From contig JAKAJV010000052.1 in assembly GCA_021813585.1 (NCBI GenBank), positions 1-36,690 of the forward strand: DNA of 36,690 bases, in the 5' to 3' direction. Source of the stretch: Bacteroidota bacterium (GTDB lineage Bacteria > Bacteroidota > Ignavibacteria > Ignavibacteriales > Ignavibacteriaceae). Below are positions 1,125 to 25,244 of the stretch, one piece after another; the first letter of the stretch is position 1, and the number at the start of each line of letters is the position of its first letter. The notes beneath the pieces are model-generated. The model had not been told where the DNA came from. It did not search any database and saw only the letters and a list, made by a program, of their open reading frames with translations. The translations under genes and the position numbers were made by a program.

Positions 1125-2060
1125 TTGGCGTTTAAAGATGAGGCGAAAAGATTCTTCGGAATAAAAACAGACGACGAGAAGAGAGAGCCCGAAACTCTAA
1201 AAGAGAAAGCCGTTGAGTTCGCTAAATCGCTTTTCTTTGCGGCAATCGCAGCGCTGTTCATTATAACATTTATAATTCAGAATACCAGGATACCTACCGG
1301 CTCGATGGAAGATACAATACTTGTAGGCGACTTTGTGCTGGTTAATAAATTTATTTACGGTTCCGAATCACCGAAGTATTTCCCATTTACCCAGATTGAA
1401 ATTCCTCACTTTAGGCTGCCTGCTCTTAAAGACCCGAAGCGAAACGATATTGTGGTATTCGAGTTTCCCGGCGACCGCGATCTGATTAAGGCAAGCACGC
1501 TAGGAATAAATTACGTTAAAAGATGCATCGGCATTCCCGGGGATACAATACAGATTATTAACAATGTTGTTTTTGTTAATCATAAGCAGTTCCCTATTCC
1601 ATCGCATATTCTTTACACCGATTATGTGCCGGTTCCTAAAGGAGCAATACGGCCGGATATTTTTCCCAGAGGCATGCCGTGGAATACCGAAAATTACGGG
1701 CCACTGATAGTACCGAAGAAAGGCTATACAATCCCTTTGAATACCGGCAATGTGCAGCAGTGGGAAATTACGATTGACAGAGAGTTCGGCAAGAGCGTAG
1801 TTGCCGTTAAAGACGGCGCCGTAACTATTGATGGTAAACCGGTTACATCATATACCTTTAAAAAGGATTATTATTTTATGATGGGCGATAACAGGGACCT
1901 TAGTTACGACAGCCGGTTCTGGGGCTTTGTACCTAGAGACAACATTGTTGCAGAGGCATCTATTATTTTATTCTCGTGGAACAGGGACATTCCCTTTACG
2001 GATTTTTTTAGACTAATAGGATCGATAAGGCCGGATAGAATACTGCTTCTATTGCACTAG
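1125..2060 (+). CDS. lepB: Signal peptidase I, first tandem copy
   Basis: Type I signal peptidase (family S26), which removes signal peptides from exported preproteins at the outer face of the inner membrane. The 311-residue protein has a cytosolic N-terminus, one membrane helix at about residues 35-52, the catalytic Ser60 in PTGSMEDT, the general-base Lys132 in YVKRCIG, and the box E motif GDNRD at 254-258 followed by SRFWGFVP. The start is TTG at 1125: a GGAG ribosome site sits at 1115-1118, six bases ahead, and there is no better ATG. The conserved box E usually reads GDNRDxSxDS; here it reads GDNRDLSYDS, slightly off consensus compared with the next copy. It lies 29 bases after gatB and 61 bases before a paralogue. 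Function is certain at family level; which substrates each copy takes is unknown. Confidence 0.96.
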   Translation: MAFKDEAKRFFGIKTDDEKREPETLKEKAVEFAKSLFFAAIAALFIITFIIQNTRIPTGSMEDTILVGDFVLVNKFIYGSESPKYFPFTQIEIPHFRLPALKDPKRNDIVVFEFPGDRDLIKASTLGINYVKRCIGIPGDTIQIINNVVFVNHKQFPIPSHILYTDYVPVPKGAIRPDIFPRGMPWNTENYGPLIVPKKGYTIPLNTGNVQQWEITIDREFGKSVVAVKDGAVTIDGKPVTSYTFKKDYYFMMGDNRDLSYDSRFWGFVPRDNIVAEASIILFSWNRDIPFTDFFRLIGSIRPDRILLLLH

Positions 2061-2121
2061 TAAATTTTAGTATGCGTTTTATTAGAAAAATTTTTATTAC
2101 ACAATCAGCTGGAGAAATAAA

Positions 2122-3057
2122 TTGTCGTTTAAGAACAGCGTTAAGAAATTCTTCGGTATAAAAACCGAAGAAGAAATAAAAAAGCAGAAGACTCCCAAAG
2201 AAAAAGTGAAAGAGTTTATTGAATCGCTGCTGTTTGCGGGTATAGCTGCGTTCTTTATTATAACCTTTATAGTTCAGAACACACGTATACCCACCGGGTC
2301 TATGGAAGATACTATTCTTGTAGGTGATTTTGTGCTAGTTAATAAATTCATTTACGGCCCCGAATCTCCCAAATATATACCGTTCACGCAAATTGAAATA
2401 CCTCATTTCAGACTGCCTGCTTTAAGGGATCCTCACAGGGGCGATATAGTCGTGTTCGAATTCCCCGGCATGCGTGATCAGGTTAAAGCAGACGAGCTTG
2501 GCGTTAACTATGTTAAAAGATGCATCGGCACTCCCGGGGACACAGTGCAGGTTATTCATAACGTAGTTTACGTTAACCATAAAATGTTTCCGGTACCTTC
2601 GCATATAAAATATCTAAGCGAATACGAAACTCCGCCTGGAACTATAAATCCCAGAATATTCCCTAAAGGTATGCCCTGGAACGAAGACAACTACGGCCCG
2701 ATTGTAATCCCTAAAAAGGGATACAAGATCCGTTTGGATACCAGCAATGTTGAGCAGTGGGAAATTACGATTGACAGGGAATACGGCAGACGAGTAGTAG
2801 CTGTTAAAGACGGGGTTGTTACTATTGAAGGCAAGCCTGTTACCTCTTATACTTTCAAAAAGGACTATTACTTTATGATGGGAGATAACAGGGACGACAG
2901 CCTTGACAGCCGGTTCTGGGGATTTGTTCCAAGAGATAATGTAGAAGGCGAGGCGTTTATTACTCTGTTCTCGTGGGACAGAGATATTCCTTTTACAGAC
3001 TTTTTCAGATTGATCGGATCAATCAGACCGGACAGGATACTGCTTTTGTTACATTGA
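2122..3057 (+). CDS. lepB: Signal peptidase I, second tandem copy
   Basis: Second type I signal peptidase, also 311 residues and aligning to the first copy without a single gap; a hand count gives 237 identical residues (76%). The catalytic Ser60, Lys132 and box E GDNRD at 254-258 are all retained, and box E here matches the consensus better (GDNRDDSLDS). The cytosolic tail at residues 15-35 and the segment at about 161-180 differ most. The start is again TTG (2122), preceded by GGAG at 2111-2114. Both copies keep every catalytic residue, so neither looks like a decaying duplicate. The gene probably shares a transcript with gatB and the first lepB. The gap after it (3058-3237) holds no recognisable gene, only a weak 5-bp hairpin at 3116-3128. 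Confidence 0.96.
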   Translation: MSFKNSVKKFFGIKTEEEIKKQKTPKEKVKEFIESLLFAGIAAFFIITFIVQNTRIPTGSMEDTILVGDFVLVNKFIYGPESPKYIPFTQIEIPHFRLPALRDPHRGDIVVFEFPGMRDQVKADELGVNYVKRCIGTPGDTVQVIHNVVYVNHKMFPVPSHIKYLSEYETPPGTINPRIFPKGMPWNEDNYGPIVIPKKGYKIRLDTSNVEQWEITIDREYGRRVVAVKDGVVTIEGKPVTSYTFKKDYYFMMGDNRDDSLDSRFWGFVPRDNVEGEAFITLFSWDRDIPFTDFFRLIGSIRPDRILLLLH

Positions 3058-20131: not shown

Positions 20132-22636
20132 TTATTTTATTTCATCCGGACTTTTTTCTTTTTCCTCGTGCGGGGTAATTTTACTCGAATCATCTTCGAG
20201 GAAAACCAGCTCTTCCGAATTTTCAAAATACTTTGCAATTATCTTTGCGCCTTCCTTAAAAGTACCGCGCAAAATCTCTTCAGCAAGAGGATCTTCAACA
20301 TACTTTTGAATTGCACGGCGCAGAGGCCTGGCTCCGTATTTCTGGTCGAAGCCTTTATCAACCAGAAAGCTCTTAGCGGAAATATCAAGCGTCAATTCCA
20401 TTTTGTTCTCGTGGATATTCTTGAAAATTTCCTTCATCTCTATATCTATTATCTCAAGTATATCTTCTTTCTCAAGGCTTCTAAATACAATGGTCTCATC
20501 AACCCTGTTAAGAAACTCGGGATTGAAAAGCTTTCTCATCGCTTCCTCTACGGTGTTCTTCATTGCAGCATGCCTATCCTCTGCCTTCTCGCTGCCGAAT
20601 CCGAAAGAGCCGATATTTTTAATATCCCTTGCACCTATATTGGTGGTCATTATGATTATCGTATTTTTGAAATCCACCTTCCTGCCTAGACTGTCGGTTA
20701 AAATACCGTCATCAAGAACCTGGAGTAGAATTCCGAAAATATCCGGGTGAGCTTTTTCAATTTCATCAAAAAGTACAACCGAATATGGTCTTCTTCTTAC
20801 TTTTTCGGTAAGCTGTCCGCCTTCTTCGTAGCCAACATATCCCGGAGGTGCGCCCACCAGCCTGCTGAGCGAAAACTTTTCCATGTATTCACTCATATCA
20901 ATTCTGATTAAAGCGTTATCCGAATCGAATAGATACTTAGCCAGCACCTTGCAAAGCTCGGTCTTGCCAACTCCGGTAGGTCCTAAAAATATAAAGCTGC
21001 CAATGGGCCTGCTGGGATTTTTAAGGCCAGCCCTTGTTCTTCTTATCGCCTTTGTCAGCTTGGTAACCGCTTCATTCTGACCAACTATGTAAGACTTCAA
21101 TGCATCTTCCATCTTTAGGAGCTTTTCGGATTCGGTTTGAGCAACCCGGTTAACCGGAATGCCGGTCATCATTGCAACAACGGTGGCAATATCTTCTTCA
21201 CTTACATCGTGAACTATATCTTTTGTCCGCGCTTCCCATTCTCTCTTCGCAATTTCAAGGTCGGACTGCAGGTTTCGCTCTTTATCCCTAAGCCGGGCTG
21301 CTTCTTCATAATCCTGTCTCTTAACAACCGATGCTTTTTCCTGTCTTACTTTCTCAATCTCGGCTTCAAGATCCAGAATTTCCTGTGGTACTTCGAAGTT
21401 GCCCATGTGTACTCTGGAGCCCGCTTCATCTATTACGTCTATTGCCTTATCAGGCAGATGGCGGTCGGTAATATACCTGTTGCTCAGCTTAACTGCAGAA
21501 TCAATAGCTTCCTGCGAATACCTTACGTGATGATGCTCTTCGTACTTGAACTTTATGTTGTTCAATATCTGGATAGTCTCATCGAAGCTTGGAGGCTCGA
21601 CCATCACTTTTTGAAAGCGCCTGTCCAGGGCACCGTCTGTCTCGATAAATTTTCTATATTCATCCAGTGTAGTAGCACCGATGCATTGAATATCCCCGCG
21701 CGCCAGAGCCGGTTTAAACATGTTCGAAGCGTCCAGCGACCCTGAAGCGCCGCCGGCGCCAACGATTGTATGGAGCTCATCGATAAAGAGAATTACGTCT
21801 TTAGCTTTTTCGAGCTCGTTCATTAAAGCTTTCATTCTCTCTTCAAACTGGCCTCTGTATTTTGTACCAGCAACCAGCCCTGCAAGGTCCAGGGTAACTA
21901 CGCGTTTATCCTGAAGGATTCTCGGTACTTTCTTTTGCACTATCTTAAGTGCAAGCCCTTCGGCAATAGCGGTTTTGCCTACACCCGGCTCGCCTATAAG
22001 CACGGGGTTATTCTTTTTCCTTCTGCTTAATACCTGGGCAACTCTTTCAATTTCCTTTTCGCGCCCAACCACCGGGTCTAGTTTGTCTTCAATTGCAAGC
22101 TTTGTAAGGTCTCTTCCAAAATTATCCAGCACCGGAGTTTTGGTGCGTTCAATTTTCTTATCAGGCGGAGGCACAGTAGCACCCGAGTCCTTGGGATTTT
22201 TTGTGCTTAGCATTGCATTCAATTCGGAACGCGCAGCATCGTAAGAAATGTTGAACTGATGAAGTATTTGTGTGGCTATGTTGTCTTCATCCCGCAACAG
22301 CGAAAGCAATAGATGCTCGGTTCCGATAACATCGGCTTTATAAATTTTCGATTCAATTTGAGTTATCTTTAAAACTTTTTCAGCTTGTTTGGTTAGAGGT
22401 ATATTACCAATTGTTAGAGTACCGCCGGAAGTTCTAACGGTGTCTTCAATTGCTTTTTTAAGTTTCATTAAATCACAGTCAAGATTCCTTAAAATTCTAA
22501 CCGCAACGCCCTGTCCTTCCCGAATTATTCCCAACAAAAGATGTTCGGTGCCGATATAATCATGACCCAGCCGCAAAGCCTCTTCGCGGCTTAACCTTAT
22601 TACGTCCTGCAGCCGATCTGAAAAATTTCCATCCAT
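20132..22636 (-). CDS. clpC: ATP-dependent Clp protease ATP-binding subunit ClpC
   Basis: An 834-residue Hsp100 AAA+ unfoldase that feeds substrates to ClpP. In order: two ClpN repeats (about 5-145), AAA-1 with Walker A GEPGVGKT (215-222) and Walker B VILFIDEL (281-288), a middle domain carrying a UVR motif (RQDYEEAARLRDKE, about 440-453) that separates ClpC from ClpA and ClpB, AAA-2 with Walker A GPTGVGKT (552-559) and Walker B VVLFDEIE (620-627), and a C-terminal D2-small domain. A long acidic/Lys-rich tail ends in SPDEIK. The ATG at 22636 follows AAGGGAAA. The gene is transcribed alone to the terminator at 20064-20092. A putative regulatory region with inverted repeats lies upstream. Confidence 0.96.
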   Translation of the reverse strand: MDGNFSDRLQDVIRLSREEALRLGHDYIGTEHLLLGIIREGQGVAVRILRNLDCDLMKLKKAIEDTVRTSGGTLTIGNIPLTKQAEKVLKITQIESKIYKADVIGTEHLLLSLLRDEDNIATQILHQFNISYDAARSELNAMLSTKNPKDSGATVPPPDKKIERTKTPVLDNFGRDLTKLAIEDKLDPVVGREKEIERVAQVLSRRKKNNPVLIGEPGVGKTAIAEGLALKIVQKKVPRILQDKRVVTLDLAGLVAGTKYRGQFEERMKALMNELEKAKDVILFIDELHTIVGAGGASGSLDASNMFKPALARGDIQCIGATTLDEYRKFIETDGALDRRFQKVMVEPPSFDETIQILNNIKFKYEEHHHVRYSQEAIDSAVKLSNRYITDRHLPDKAIDVIDEAGSRVHMGNFEVPQEILDLEAEIEKVRQEKASVVKRQDYEEAARLRDKERNLQSDLEIAKREWEARTKDIVHDVSEEDIATVVAMMTGIPVNRVAQTESEKLLKMEDALKSYIVGQNEAVTKLTKAIRRTRAGLKNPSRPIGSFIFLGPTGVGKTELCKVLAKYLFDSDNALIRIDMSEYMEKFSLSRLVGAPPGYVGYEEGGQLTEKVRRRPYSVVLFDEIEKAHPDIFGILLQVLDDGILTDSLGRKVDFKNTIIIMTTNIGARDIKNIGSFGFGSEKAEDRHAAMKNTVEEAMRKLFNPEFLNRVDETIVFRSLEKEDILEIIDIEMKEIFKNIHENKMELTLDISAKSFLVDKGFDQKYGARPLRRAIQKYVEDPLAEEILRGTFKEGAKIIAKYFENSEELVFLEDDSSKITPHEEKEKSPDEIK

Positions 22637-23019
22637 AAAATTTCCCTTATTTTCTATTAAATCTTAAACAAATCAAATTAACAACCTAAATGGCTACCAA
22701 TAATATAAATATACTAATGCATGCAATCAAGATTAGCTGATTACACCCAATTTTACACAATATTTTGGTAACTTTAAATACTGTTTGGGACAGGTTACCT
22801 TAAATCACTTAAAATTTACGTAAATGTGATCCCCGTAAGGATTTTTTGATTCTTTCCGGGCAATAAATGCCTACTTTTTCAAATCGCAGCGGGGTTCTAT
22901 TATCGTTTAAATTTATCCTTCCGTTAATATAGCATTTAAAACAATTATAGATTTATTTTTATAAAAAGTAAAGTAAGGAATTTTTTACCTCGACCGAATT
23001 AGCCGGCTCTTTACATTTC
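22637..23019. other. AT-rich divergent intergenic region upstream of clpC, with palindromes
   Basis: This stretch between the divergent clpC and helicase genes has no gene. It holds an inverted repeat GGTAAC (22767-22772) ... GTTACC (22794-22799), inside which CTGT-TTGGG-ACAG forms a smaller hairpin stacked directly on the right arm, and a perfect 12-base palindrome ATTTACGTAAAT at 22814-22825. Either could be an operator or a stress-regulation site for clpC. A weak TAnnTTTG-like sequence (TATTATTG on the minus strand, about 22695-22702) could be the clpC promoter. Nothing else is recognisable. Confidence 0.4.
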
Positions 23020-23176
23020 TTATTAACTCATGTTACGCAGGAATACATTTTGATGTCAGCATTGTCATTCCCACGAAAGTGGGAATCCATTTTTTATCAT
23101 ATTTTTGCATCTTGGATACCCGCTTTCGCGGGTATGACACTCAAGCTTTATAATTTTGCGTAACAGGAGTTATTAA
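23020..23176. repeat. Small palindromic element with 20-base terminal inverted repeats and two inverted hairpins
   Basis: Left end 23020-23039 (TTATTAACTCATGTTACGCA) and the reverse complement of right end 23157-23176 agree at 18 of 20 bases. Inside are two 27-base units in opposite orientation, 23063-23089 and 23113-23139. Each forms an 8-bp perfect stem with a four-base loop (GAAA read on the forward side). Compared in the same orientation they differ at four positions, and all four are paired with one another as two compensatory changes. The element of about 157 bases has no coding capacity and looks like a non-autonomous mobile or REP-like unit. A second right-end-like copy follows at 23181-23198. 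The units resemble dispersed ATTCCC...GGGAAT repeats known from several bacterial genomes. Confidence 0.75.
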
Positions 23177-23180
23177 AATT

Positions 23181-23198
23181 GCTTAACAGGAGTTATTA
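23181..23198 (+). repeat. Additional copy of the element right end
   Basis: GCTTAACAGGAGTTATTA repeats the sequence at 23158-23175 (GCGTAACAGGAGTTATTA) with one mismatch in 18 bases, 23 bases further on and in the same orientation. It may be a relic of an earlier insertion or a target-like duplication. Confidence 0.7.
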
Positions 23199-23237
23199 TT
23201 TTATTTTTATTATTAAGCAAAAGAAATTAAATTTTTA

Positions 23238-25244
23238 ATGATAGAGAAAAAATACAAATTAAGAAGGCTTAACGAACCGGTTATACAAAAGCCGGTAGTT
23301 GATGAAAGCCGTTTTGTTATAAACTATTCGAATGAATTAAACGCAGCTCAGTTCGAAGCGGCATCTGCATTAGACGGCGCTTACCTTATTATTGCCGGGG
23401 CGGGCACCGGCAAGACAAGAACCCTCGTTTACAGGGTTGCCCGGCTTGTAGAATTAGGCTACGACCCGAAGACAATATTGCTGTTAACTTTTACCCGGAA
23501 AGCTGCCAACGAGATGATGAACCGGGCGGCTGTTCTTCTAGATAAAAGATGCTCGAAGGTAAACGGCGGCACCTTCCATTCCTTTGCCAACTTAACTCTA
23601 AGAAAATACGCAAAAGCCGTTAACCTGGATTCTTCATTCACCATACTGGACCAGGGAGACAGCGAAGACATTATTAACCTGATCCGCTCTCAATCTGGAA
23701 TTGTTACTAAAGAAAAAAGGTTCCCCAATAAGCAGACCCTAACCAAGGTTTTCAGCTACAGTGTTAATACCGGCACTGCTGTTGAAGAAATTATAAAGGA
23801 AGATTATCCGCACTTTGTAGATAGCCTGGATAAAATTCTAGACATCCAAAGGATTTTTGTAAATTATAAACATAAGAACAACCTGCTGGATTACGATGAT
23901 CTGCTGGTTTACTTAAACAATTTCCTCAATGAATTCGGACCGGGCGCAAAGTCTCTGCTGTCTTCAATTCATTTTGTAATGGTGGATGAATACCAGGATA
24001 CGAACAAACTGCAGGCGGAGATTGTAAAAGGACTGACGAGGCTAAGGAACAACATTATGGTTGTGGGCGATGATTCGCAATCAATTTATTCCTTCCGCGG
24101 TGCAAATTTTAAAAACATAATGGAGTTCCCAAATCTATTCAATGATGTTAAGATAATTAAGCTGGAAGAGAATTTTAGAAGCATACAATCGATACTCGAT
24201 TTTACAAATAACATAATCGAGAGAGCAGTCGAAAAATACTCCAAGAACCTTTACACCAGAAAAACCGGCGGCGCATTGCCGGTAATTATTGCGGCCTCAA
24301 CCGAGAATTTGCAGTCCAAATTTATTGTTGAAAAAATCCTTGAGCTTAGGGAAGAAGGAGTTCCCCTTAAGGATATTGCCGTACTTTTCAGGTCCTCGTT
24401 CTTCTCTTTTGATCTTGAGATAGAACTGGCAAAGGCTAATATACCGTTCCAGAAATTCGGCGGGATGAAGTTCATCGAATCGGCTCACATAAAAGACATA
24501 CTTGCTTTCCTTAGAATAGCCTCCAATCCGAAGGACATTGTAAGCTGGTACAGAGTGCTGCTGCTTCACGAAGGTGTTGGACCTAAGACAGCACAAAAAA
24601 TTCTAGATGAACTGGCTACCGCCAGGCTTACAATTAAAGCCAGCCCGGATTCCGATGCTTCATTCAGGTATAATGAAAAAATCGCAAGCTTATTCCAACT
24701 GCTTTATAAGCTTCATACCGAAAGGAAGCTTCCGTCTGAGAAAGCCCAGATGGTAACGGATTATTATTATCCCTTGTTTAAGGATAAATACGACGACTTT
24801 AACAAGCGGAAAAAAGATATAGACATATTCCTGAACATAAGTGAAAACTATAAAACGCTGGAAAGCCTGCTGGCGGATATGGCAATTGAGCCGATTATCG
24901 AAAGCGTGATTGACATAGGCGCTGAGGATAAGGAAAACGAATTCGTTACCCTTTCAACAATTCATTCGGCAAAGGGACTTGAATGGCATTCGGTGTTTAT
25001 AATCCATCTGGTGGAAGGATTCTTCCCTTCAAGCAGGTCGGTGGATAAACTAGAAACTCTGGAAGAAGAACGGCGGCTTATGTACGTGGCTTCTACAAGG
25101 GCAAAGCATAATTTGTTTATCACTTATCCGATGAACCTGTTCGACCGTGAAGCCGGAACCACGCTGTCTAAGCCTTCGCGGTTCATCTCCGAAATTAACC
25201 CGGAGCTTGCCGAAGGATGGCTGCTTGATGATGAGTATGAATAA
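23238..25244 (+). CDS. UvrD/PcrA/Rep-family ATP-dependent DNA helicase
   Basis: A 668-residue superfamily 1A 3'-5' helicase. Motifs in order: Q-motif LNAAQFEA (34-41), motif I GAGTGKT (54-60; Thr where Ser is more common), Ia TFTRKAANEM, motif II DEYQD (250-254), motif III GDDSQSIYSFRGA (277-289), motif IV EENFRS, motif V TLSTIHSAKGLEW and motif VI MYVASTRAKHNLF. The whole helicase core is present. The protein is shorter than UvrD (about 720) and lacks the basic C-terminal Tudor-like tail of PcrA/UvrD, ending soon after motif VI with an acidic tail. It could be a repair or replication-restart helicase. The start ATG at 23238 has no clear ribosome site; it is divergent from clpC. Confidence 0.93.
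   Translation: MIEKKYKLRRLNEPVIQKPVVDESRFVINYSNELNAAQFEAASALDGAYLIIAGAGTGKTRTLVYRVARLVELGYDPKTILLLTFTRKAANEMMNRAAVLLDKRCSKVNGGTFHSFANLTLRKYAKAVNLDSSFTILDQGDSEDIINLIRSQSGIVTKEKRFPNKQTLTKVFSYSVNTGTAVEEIIKEDYPHFVDSLDKILDIQRIFVNYKHKNNLLDYDDLLVYLNNFLNEFGPGAKSLLSSIHFVMVDEYQDTNKLQAEIVKGLTRLRNNIMVVGDDSQSIYSFRGANFKNIMEFPNLFNDVKIIKLEENFRSIQSILDFTNNIIERAVEKYSKNLYTRKTGGALPVIIAASTENLQSKFIVEKILELREEGVPLKDIAVLFRSSFFSFDLEIELAKANIPFQKFGGMKFIESAHIKDILAFLRIASNPKDIVSWYRVLLLHEGVGPKTAQKILDELATARLTIKASPDSDASFRYNEKIASLFQLLYKLHTERKLPSEKAQMVTDYYYPLFKDKYDDFNKRKKDIDIFLNISENYKTLESLLADMAIEPIIESVIDIGAEDKENEFVTLSTIHSAKGLEWHSVFIIHLVEGFFPSSRSVDKLETLEEERRLMYVASTRAKHNLFITYPMNLFDREAGTTLSKPSRFISEINPELAEGWLLDDEYE

Follow-up and report, generated by a model that had tools for sequence, protein, structure and literature searches.

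REP sequences of the CGTC-1 type were defined in a 2013 survey (Di Nocera 2013, PMC3733652), and the definition includes the tag variant TGTC as well as the head-head (HH) arrangement of two units. The CGTC-1 REPs include dRS3 of Neisseria, and CGTC repeats have been reported in Chlorobi among five phyla (PMC3733652). In the sections of the survey drawn on here, no association of CGTC repeats with a transposase was found and their movement was left open with the suggestion that various transposases might do it; it was also suggested that heterodimers may evade the cleavage of long palindromes (PMC3733652). Precedents are known for a REP within a MITE (QMITE2, of the GTAG type) and for CGTC-1 dimers within palindromes, the latter in the same sections of the survey (PMC3733652). 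A CGTC REP dimer combined with terminal inverted repeats (TIRs), a target duplication and an IS partner was not found in searches of the open-licence literature.

We analysed a stretch of 36,690 nucleotides from a Bacteroidota bacterium of the family Ignavibacteriaceae (contig JAKAJV010000052.1; here, the window), which carries one copy of such an element. The absence of an associated transposase, a family observation for CGTC-1, does not hold here, as the TIRs around the dimer resemble the ends of a DDE-type IS. The element is probably a recently amplified, CGTC-1-carrying MITE of an IS701/ISAba11-like IS. We consider it about 85% probable that the element, termed family A, is a MITE that depends for its movement on a DDE transposase supplied in trans by a small IS, and that it carries a hitch-hiking CGTC-1 REP heterodimer and was amplified to about 100 copies. 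The features of the window copy are listed in Table 1.

Table 1. Coordinates of the family-A element and its parts in the window
Feature	Position	Strand	Remarks
Target-site duplication (TSD), left copy TTATTAA, quasi-palindromic	23020-23026		identical to 23170-23176
143-bp MITE, non-autonomous, family A	23027-23169	+	boundaries set by TIR and TSD across 60 copies
Left TIR CTCATGTTACGCA	23027-23039	+	inverted-arm comparison, genome-wide TIR matches, copy alignment
REP unit 1, CGTC-1 type	23063-23089	+	tag TGTC, 8-bp stem ATTCCCAC/GTGGGAAT, loop GAAA, tail CCA, then T6
REP dimer spacer	23090-23112		23 nt
REP unit 2, CGTC-1 type	23113-23139	-	stem ATACCCGC/GCGGGTAT, loop GAAA
Right TIR TGCGTAACAGGAG	23157-23169	-	consensus TGCGTAACATGAG
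Target-site duplication, right copy TTATTAA	23170-23176		
23-bp tandem repeat, two copies, 87%	23151-23196	+	right end of element and TSD

Alignment of the copies with their flanks gave CTCATGTTACGCAG...TTGCGTAACATGAG as the ends of the 143-bp element, with a duplicated heptamer on both sides. The TIR consensus of family A is the 13-bp sequence CTCATGTTACGCA, and the TIR arms of the window copy match at 12/13. An initial annotation of this DNA had described 20-base terminal inverted repeats, and the inverted 20-nt arms (23020-23039 and 23157-23176) do match at 18/20; their outer 7 nt are target duplication and the TIR proper is only 13 nt long, the 20-bp arms having arisen because a near-palindromic 7-bp target abuts the TIR. 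The element is short, non-coding, multi-copy and dispersed, with 13-bp TIRs and a target duplication, and is hence a MITE.

The hairpins are as initially annotated, namely two opposed 27-base units with 8-bp stems and GAAA loops that differ at four positions, which amounts to the exchange of two base pairs (T-A to A-T, A-T to G-C). Both units fit one degenerate pattern with 0 mismatches (100 shuffled versions of the window gave a mean of 0.00 matches), and the region 23000-23200 folds at z = -6.6 against shuffles. Each unit has the CGTC/TGTC tag, 8-bp stem starting AT, 4-nt loop and CCA tail of a CGTC-1 REP, and the tags are outermost (HH), matching the definition of a CGTC-1 dimer. The four differences preserve each local stem yet split the 27-nt long-range pairing into runs of 6 or fewer. 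The tandem repeat at the right end yields two AACAGGAGTTATT motifs directly upstream of a helicase gene, and both of its copies read CAGGAG in place of the consensus CATGAG, so that the repeat is probably a local duplication that would postdate the CAGGAG change. Elsewhere, the copy L029 is flanked by a similar partial repeat of the element end.

The initial annotation had proposed a mobile hairpin family with terminal inverted repeats, to be checked by searching the genome for further units with shared ends and for a target duplication, and both checks came out in its favour. Allowing up to 3 mismatches, the unit has 205 matches genome-wide against 1 for the reversed pattern; the exact two-unit (two-hairpin) arrangement is found 93 times on many contigs against 0 in the control, and the TIR 125 times against 1. 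Chance or assembly artefact is rejected by these counts (0-1 for reversed or control patterns against 93-205), with 1 control match seen for the class-wide pattern described below. The 143-bp MITE has a copy number of about 100 in the genome. An exact target duplication flanks 48 of the 61 full-length copies (copies truncated by contig ends excluded), being 7 bp long in 42 and 8 bp in 6; the other 13 are one base off in 8 cases and more in 5. The target consensus is TTAWTAA. Several contigs stop within a MITE copy and hence the assembly breaks at the MITE. The 6-nt TIR tips of some copies were observed to vary jointly at both ends (L114, CTCACC/GGTGAG; L145, TTCAAG/CTTGAG; L108, CTGAAG/CTTCAG), as if homogenised.

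The probable partner is a 1,074-bp IS with the TIR CTGAAGTTACGCA, which is complete in two related genomes, one of the same genus (L235) and one of the same class (L236), with 7-bp TSDs (TAAATAA and TTAATAA), TTACGCA ends and a 338-residue DDE-transposase frame; the IS at G006:C4 was located through the TIR search. The transposase matches Pfam DDE_Tnp_1 (2.8e-18) and NCBIfam NF049921 IS701_2 (E value 1.2e-54, residues 15-326, 186 bits against a cut-off of 250). Its motif YRNRQIIEEFHKILK is YREK and not HHEK, the mark of ISAba11. The IS TIR is identical to the MITE consensus at 11/13 positions, the two differences lying between the tip of the burst copies (CTCATG) and that of the IS (CTGAAG), and to the older copies L108 and L282 at 13/13. 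The IS tip is present in older family-A copies, at both ends in L108 and L282 and at one end in L107. Because the tip of the burst copies differs from that of the IS, these copies may in fact stem from a sister IS.

With 35 of 38 candidates scored, the DNA matches to the IS in the host genome were four IS ends (one left, three right), each broken off by a contig edge after 122-126 bp. Their flanking heptamers are all different, which implies no fewer than three and probably four IS copies missing from the assembly. An intact transposase gene was not found in this assembly, which holds IS ends only, and a search of 13 genomes of the genus for DDE_Tnp_1 gave 0 matches in this genome and 52 in the others, where 30 fetched loci had no TTACGCA TIR pair. 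Among related transposases with identities as low as 41%, CTGAAGTTACGCA adjoins the gene in 11 of 13 loci and 8 of 9 genomes. The combined TSD and TIR pattern was detected in 57 of 391 genomes of the class, and co-occurs with the transposase in 5 of the 9 transposase genomes against 52 of the 382 others (Fisher p 0.004). With up to 5 candidates scored per genome, a transposase match at E ≤ 1e-25 was absent from 52 of the 57 pattern-positive genomes, which we provisionally attribute to assembly loss or past activity. A relative in Acinetobacter lwoffii (27% transposase identity, motif HSSHWKIEQYHRVIK) is 1,101 bp long, with a 13-bp TIR (TAGGACTTACGCA) and a T-run of 5-6 as its duplication; this TIR shares the inner TTACGCA with CTGAAGTTACGCA and hence, judging from the one Acinetobacter element examined, TTACGCA may be an old end of the IS group.

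These comparisons suggest that an IS701/ISAba11-like transposase moves the family-A MITE. The transposase of the 1,074-bp IS would recognise the 13-bp ends, excise or copy the MITE and join it to AT-rich TTAWTAA heptamers, which would become duplicated; the head-head CGTC-1 heterodimer between the ends would hitch-hike and thus be amplified to about 100 copies.

The TTACGCA core end, with a 6-nt variable tip and a like target, also bounds very different interiors in this genome (29 matches against 10 in the control). A CTCATG-TTACGCA-like TIR followed by bases other than those of family A gave 14 matches in this genome against 14 in the control, none above background. Interiors fold at z < -2 in 17 of 22 TTACGCA MITEs, several of the 22 being interrelated. 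Another family of this genome comprises TTACGCA-ended MITEs of 104-133 bp with TGGAGTAATGGAGT-type palindromes and exact 7- or 8-bp duplications (L147, L152, L154, L158, L161, L171 and L173). Two further TTACGCA MITEs were observed, one of 71 bp with a ATCCTTCAAGGT hairpin (L157, C56:33964) and one made up of TCTTGCTCTTAATC/GATTAAGAGCAAGA arms (L111, C39, about 22,700-23,800).

Dimers of this kind occur both with and without such ends. Facing dimers that lack recognisable TTACGCA ends were observed in further genomes of the order, at L291-L294, L297 and L316-L319 (best end match 8/13). Those with TTACGCA ends at one or both sides are L281, L282, L287, L288 and L086, together with L295 in another genus. 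At L283 (G004:C27, about 95,800-95,900), a dimer of two perfect hairpins has TIR-like flanks that match the IS end at 9/13 and 11/13; it is probably a decayed element and was not counted among the dimers lacking TIRs, and its decayed flanks beside intact hairpins hint that hairpins outlive ends. A second REP dimer type, GTCATGCTGAACTTGTTTCAGCATCT facing GTCATTCCGAACTTGTTTCGGAATCT, with an 8-bp stem and a 5-nt loop, is located inside TTACGCA TIRs in two other species (G001 and G025). It was present in 10 of 10 loci fetched, with an exact duplication detected by script in 7, and its stem and loop features suggest a CGTC-2-like type.

The dimer was probably captured by the MITE rather than inserted later. 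The alternative that a REP dimer was inserted into a pre-existing TTACGCA MITE, after which both spread jointly, is compatible with mobilisation in trans, and we regard it as possible though somewhat unlikely. The dimers free of TTACGCA ends in other genomes and the two different dimer types within such ends both speak for it, as does the treatment of dimers inside palindromes as insertions in the sections of the 2013 survey drawn on (PMC3733652). Against this, no dimer-less family-A MITE turned up in passing among the copies examined, and several congeneric species (L281, L282, L287 and L288) already have the association, so that the order of events is not readable from them.

A set of 21 facing dimers, which includes many homologues, contains no homodimer, and the longest perfect long-range run is 11. 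The 21 were obtained from 33 partner candidates, of which 22 had at least 7/8 stem pairs (11 excluded); merging in both directions left 19, to which the window dimer and the G001 type were added. The lack of homodimers and the interrupted long-range pairing of the window dimer fit the suggestion, made in the part of the survey cited above, that heterodimers escape cleavage (PMC3733652). A broader reading, which we hold to be speculative and rather unlikely, is that CGTC-type REPs spread because MITEs of DDE transposases capture them time and again as heterodimer cargo, with locally folding pairs that are not perfect palindromes favoured as cargo, such that the mobile system itself would maintain covariation. 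It draws on the two dimer types in TTACGCA ends, on the strong folding of most TTACGCA MITEs (some related) and on the composition of the 21 dimers.

The same two unit types, one of each, are present in all 61 full-length copies. Both compensatory differences are thus common to the whole set and amount to a single inherited difference between two REP subtypes, that is, one inherited heterodimer. Further compensatory changes, which the initial annotation had named as a check, did not appear among the young copies of this genome: of their eight stem substitutions (5 and 3 per stem, pairing judged by hand), six break pairing, two in one copy produce wobble pairs and none is compensatory. Single-base stem deletions in the young copies L052 and L141, outside this count, also disrupt pairing.

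Across genomes, the covariation of the stems is real, with two further measures at the level of the shuffles. Both free pairs are Watson-Crick in 53 of 56 distinct units of other genomes, in four combinations. For 26 distinct partner units the covariation score was 0.284 against 0.169 when shuffled, a value reached by 0 of 500 shuffles (slid versions, 0.086 at most), and 82.4% of cells were paired against 75.0 when shuffled; the covariation scores are inflated by the relatedness of the units, and the choice of the better-pairing candidate where several occurred at one place favours pairing. For these 26 units, neither the count of pairs altered on both sides nor that of additional pair types was above the shuffles (148/500 and 119/500). 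A partial set without 5 poorly paired candidates gave 90.3% paired and a score of 0.351 against 0.173, and the full 26 are preferred. The initial annotation had suggested that the folded form is selected or that the units belong to a large family under that constraint; the cross-genome data bear out the family, and the compensatory pairs, being shared by every copy, lose their value as evidence of selection in situ.

The units are also more conserved than their surroundings. In four older copies, substitutions affect 9 of 135 unbaited unit sites against 77 of 241 other interior sites (p 4e-9), a rate about fivefold lower in the units; the test treats sites as independent and counts substitutions only, and with gaps as changes the figures are 9/135 against 88/252. 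The unbaited units counted were both of L169, unit 1 of L287 and unit 2 of L288 and L295, with L107, L108, L281 and L282 dropped as baited. Alignment is poor in the interiors of L287 and L295, and the left end of L287 lies beyond the fetched stretch; the two best-aligned older copies alone gave 3/81 against 33/124 (p 9e-6). A set of 54 young copies, in which one end has no more than 1 mismatch, shows 10 distinct changes in 54 unit sites and 28 in 63 others (p 0.0098). Some copies were retrieved via hairpins, which biases hairpin variation low in the whole set and partly in these 54 (late contigs); in the 32 copies with a perfect end, a set independent of the hairpins, there are 7 against 19 changes (p 0.036). 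The conservation probably reflects a constraint on the folded unit.

Such conservation, weaker in the young copies than in the older ones, would be expected of a hairpin, in RNA or DNA, that the host maintains by selection where it is useful as an attenuator, terminator or protein site, with amplification secondary. In the window, the element lies between divergent genes whose names were read from their translations, clpC (start at 22636 on the - strand) and a UvrD-type helicase (start at 23238 on the + strand). Read in the direction of the helicase gene, unit 1 and the T6 that follows it are terminator-like. By simple ORF calling at 27 three-kb loci, the flanking ORFs are tandem for 18 copies, convergent for 6 and divergent for 2, with 1 unclassified, and 0 of 27 copies lie wholly inside a called ORF, which also suits a useful hairpin. 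We nevertheless judge host selection quite improbable as the primary explanation. An intergenic bias is expected for any surviving insertion, and at 2 of the 26 classified loci the element is overlapped for 134 bp by a called ORF; 191 unit matches were found here against 1-12 in each of 16 other positive relatives, most young stem substitutions break pairing, and Rfam gave no match at gathering level.

Comparison with relatives was carried out on uvrD-type loci, the best 80 from 99 relatives. The nearest relatives of the helicase in this set come from Ignavibacteria-type MAGs, which makes that group the probable affiliation of the genome. A clpC match is upstream and divergent within the fetched stretch in 45 of the 80, and within 1 kb in 8 (303-893 bp). 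The exact TIR, in the form tested, was upstream of the uvrD-type gene in 0 of 80 loci, with a single match downstream (L327), and the clpC-helicase gap in the 8 genomes with both genes within 1 kb is without the TIR. A base-exact empty site was not obtainable from these 80 loci, the intergenic DNA being too diverged. Elsewhere in the window (1125-3057), two adjacent genes that are about 75% identical were read as signal peptidase I (lepB) paralogues.

It is most improbable that the element is a REPIN-like dimer moved by a RAYT (an IS200-type tyrosine transposase) with incidental TIRs: the architecture is REPIN-like and the genome has two Y1_Tnp matches, one of them a 186-aa ORF that we read as RAYT-like, but it is the TIRs and not the REP that bound the repeated unit, a 7-bp duplication is made, which is not known of IS200-type enzymes, movement with TIR and TSD is evident in most full-length copies, no CGTC-1-type unit is present within stretches of about 3 kb around both Y1_Tnp genes, and the GTAG tag and adjacent RAYT gene of REPIN/RAYT systems are missing, the tag being TGTC. 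The lack of a CGTC-transposase association in the sections of the 2013 survey drawn on argues in the same direction (PMC3733652). At L062 (G000:C112:6936-7112), the 3' flank of a RAYT-like tyrosine transposase gene is repetitive, with two occurrences of a VCTYLHKMYLLQSLCDHRKHNFLHLN-coding repeat, and is unrelated to CGTC units.

The spread of a CGTC-1 dimer as cargo of a TIR element represents one way in which 'ownerless' hairpin repeats can spread. With an identifiable type of IS partner, and a second dimer type in like ends in two other species, the question of movement becomes testable, as transposase, ends and target can be named. That the 'covariation' of the heterodimer goes back to a difference between subtypes, passed on together with the element, calls for caution in the interpretation of compensatory changes in repeat families.

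The partner transposase resembles those of ISAba11/IS701-like IS in that its best match is NCBIfam IS701_2 and in the inner TTACGCA shared with the A. lwoffii element, similar matches being annotated as IS701 family; it differs in having YREK, the tip CTGAAG and a 7-bp TTAWTAA duplication. IS701 duplications are 4 bp long according to the sections of PMC2266710 drawn on. The same sections describe an ISPepr1 subgroup of IS4 that shares with the partner duplications of 7-8 bp, AT-rich targets, YREK and ends of the form YT-AA-YTT---A (7/8 fit to CTGAAGTTACGCA), but its members are 1,500-1,600 bp long (PMC2266710) and the 1,074-bp partner has a transposase nearer to IS701_2 than to any IS4 model. 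ISPepr1/IS4 as the partner family, suggested by the end consensus and the TSD length, is not supported by the transposase models or by size.

Among REP-bearing elements, QMITE2 of Coxiella burnetii is similar in that its REP sits in a MITE of 150-190 bp with TIRs and direct repeats of 7-11 nt; that REP is of the GTAG type and a target of IS1111 (PMC5896051, in the portion used here). The CGTC-1 dimers of H. neapolitanus are likewise heterodimers regularly set in one palindromic sequence, of 41 bp, for which the portion of PMC3733652 used gives no TSD, transposase or mobile-element reading. With the CGTC-1 REPs as characterised in that portion (PMC3733652), the window element shares the TGTC/CGTC tag, the 8-bp AT-starting stem, the 4-nt loop, the CCA tail and the HH heterodimer, and it departs from them in that the dimer here regularly lies between TIRs flanked by a duplicated target, and in that an IS partner can be recognised.
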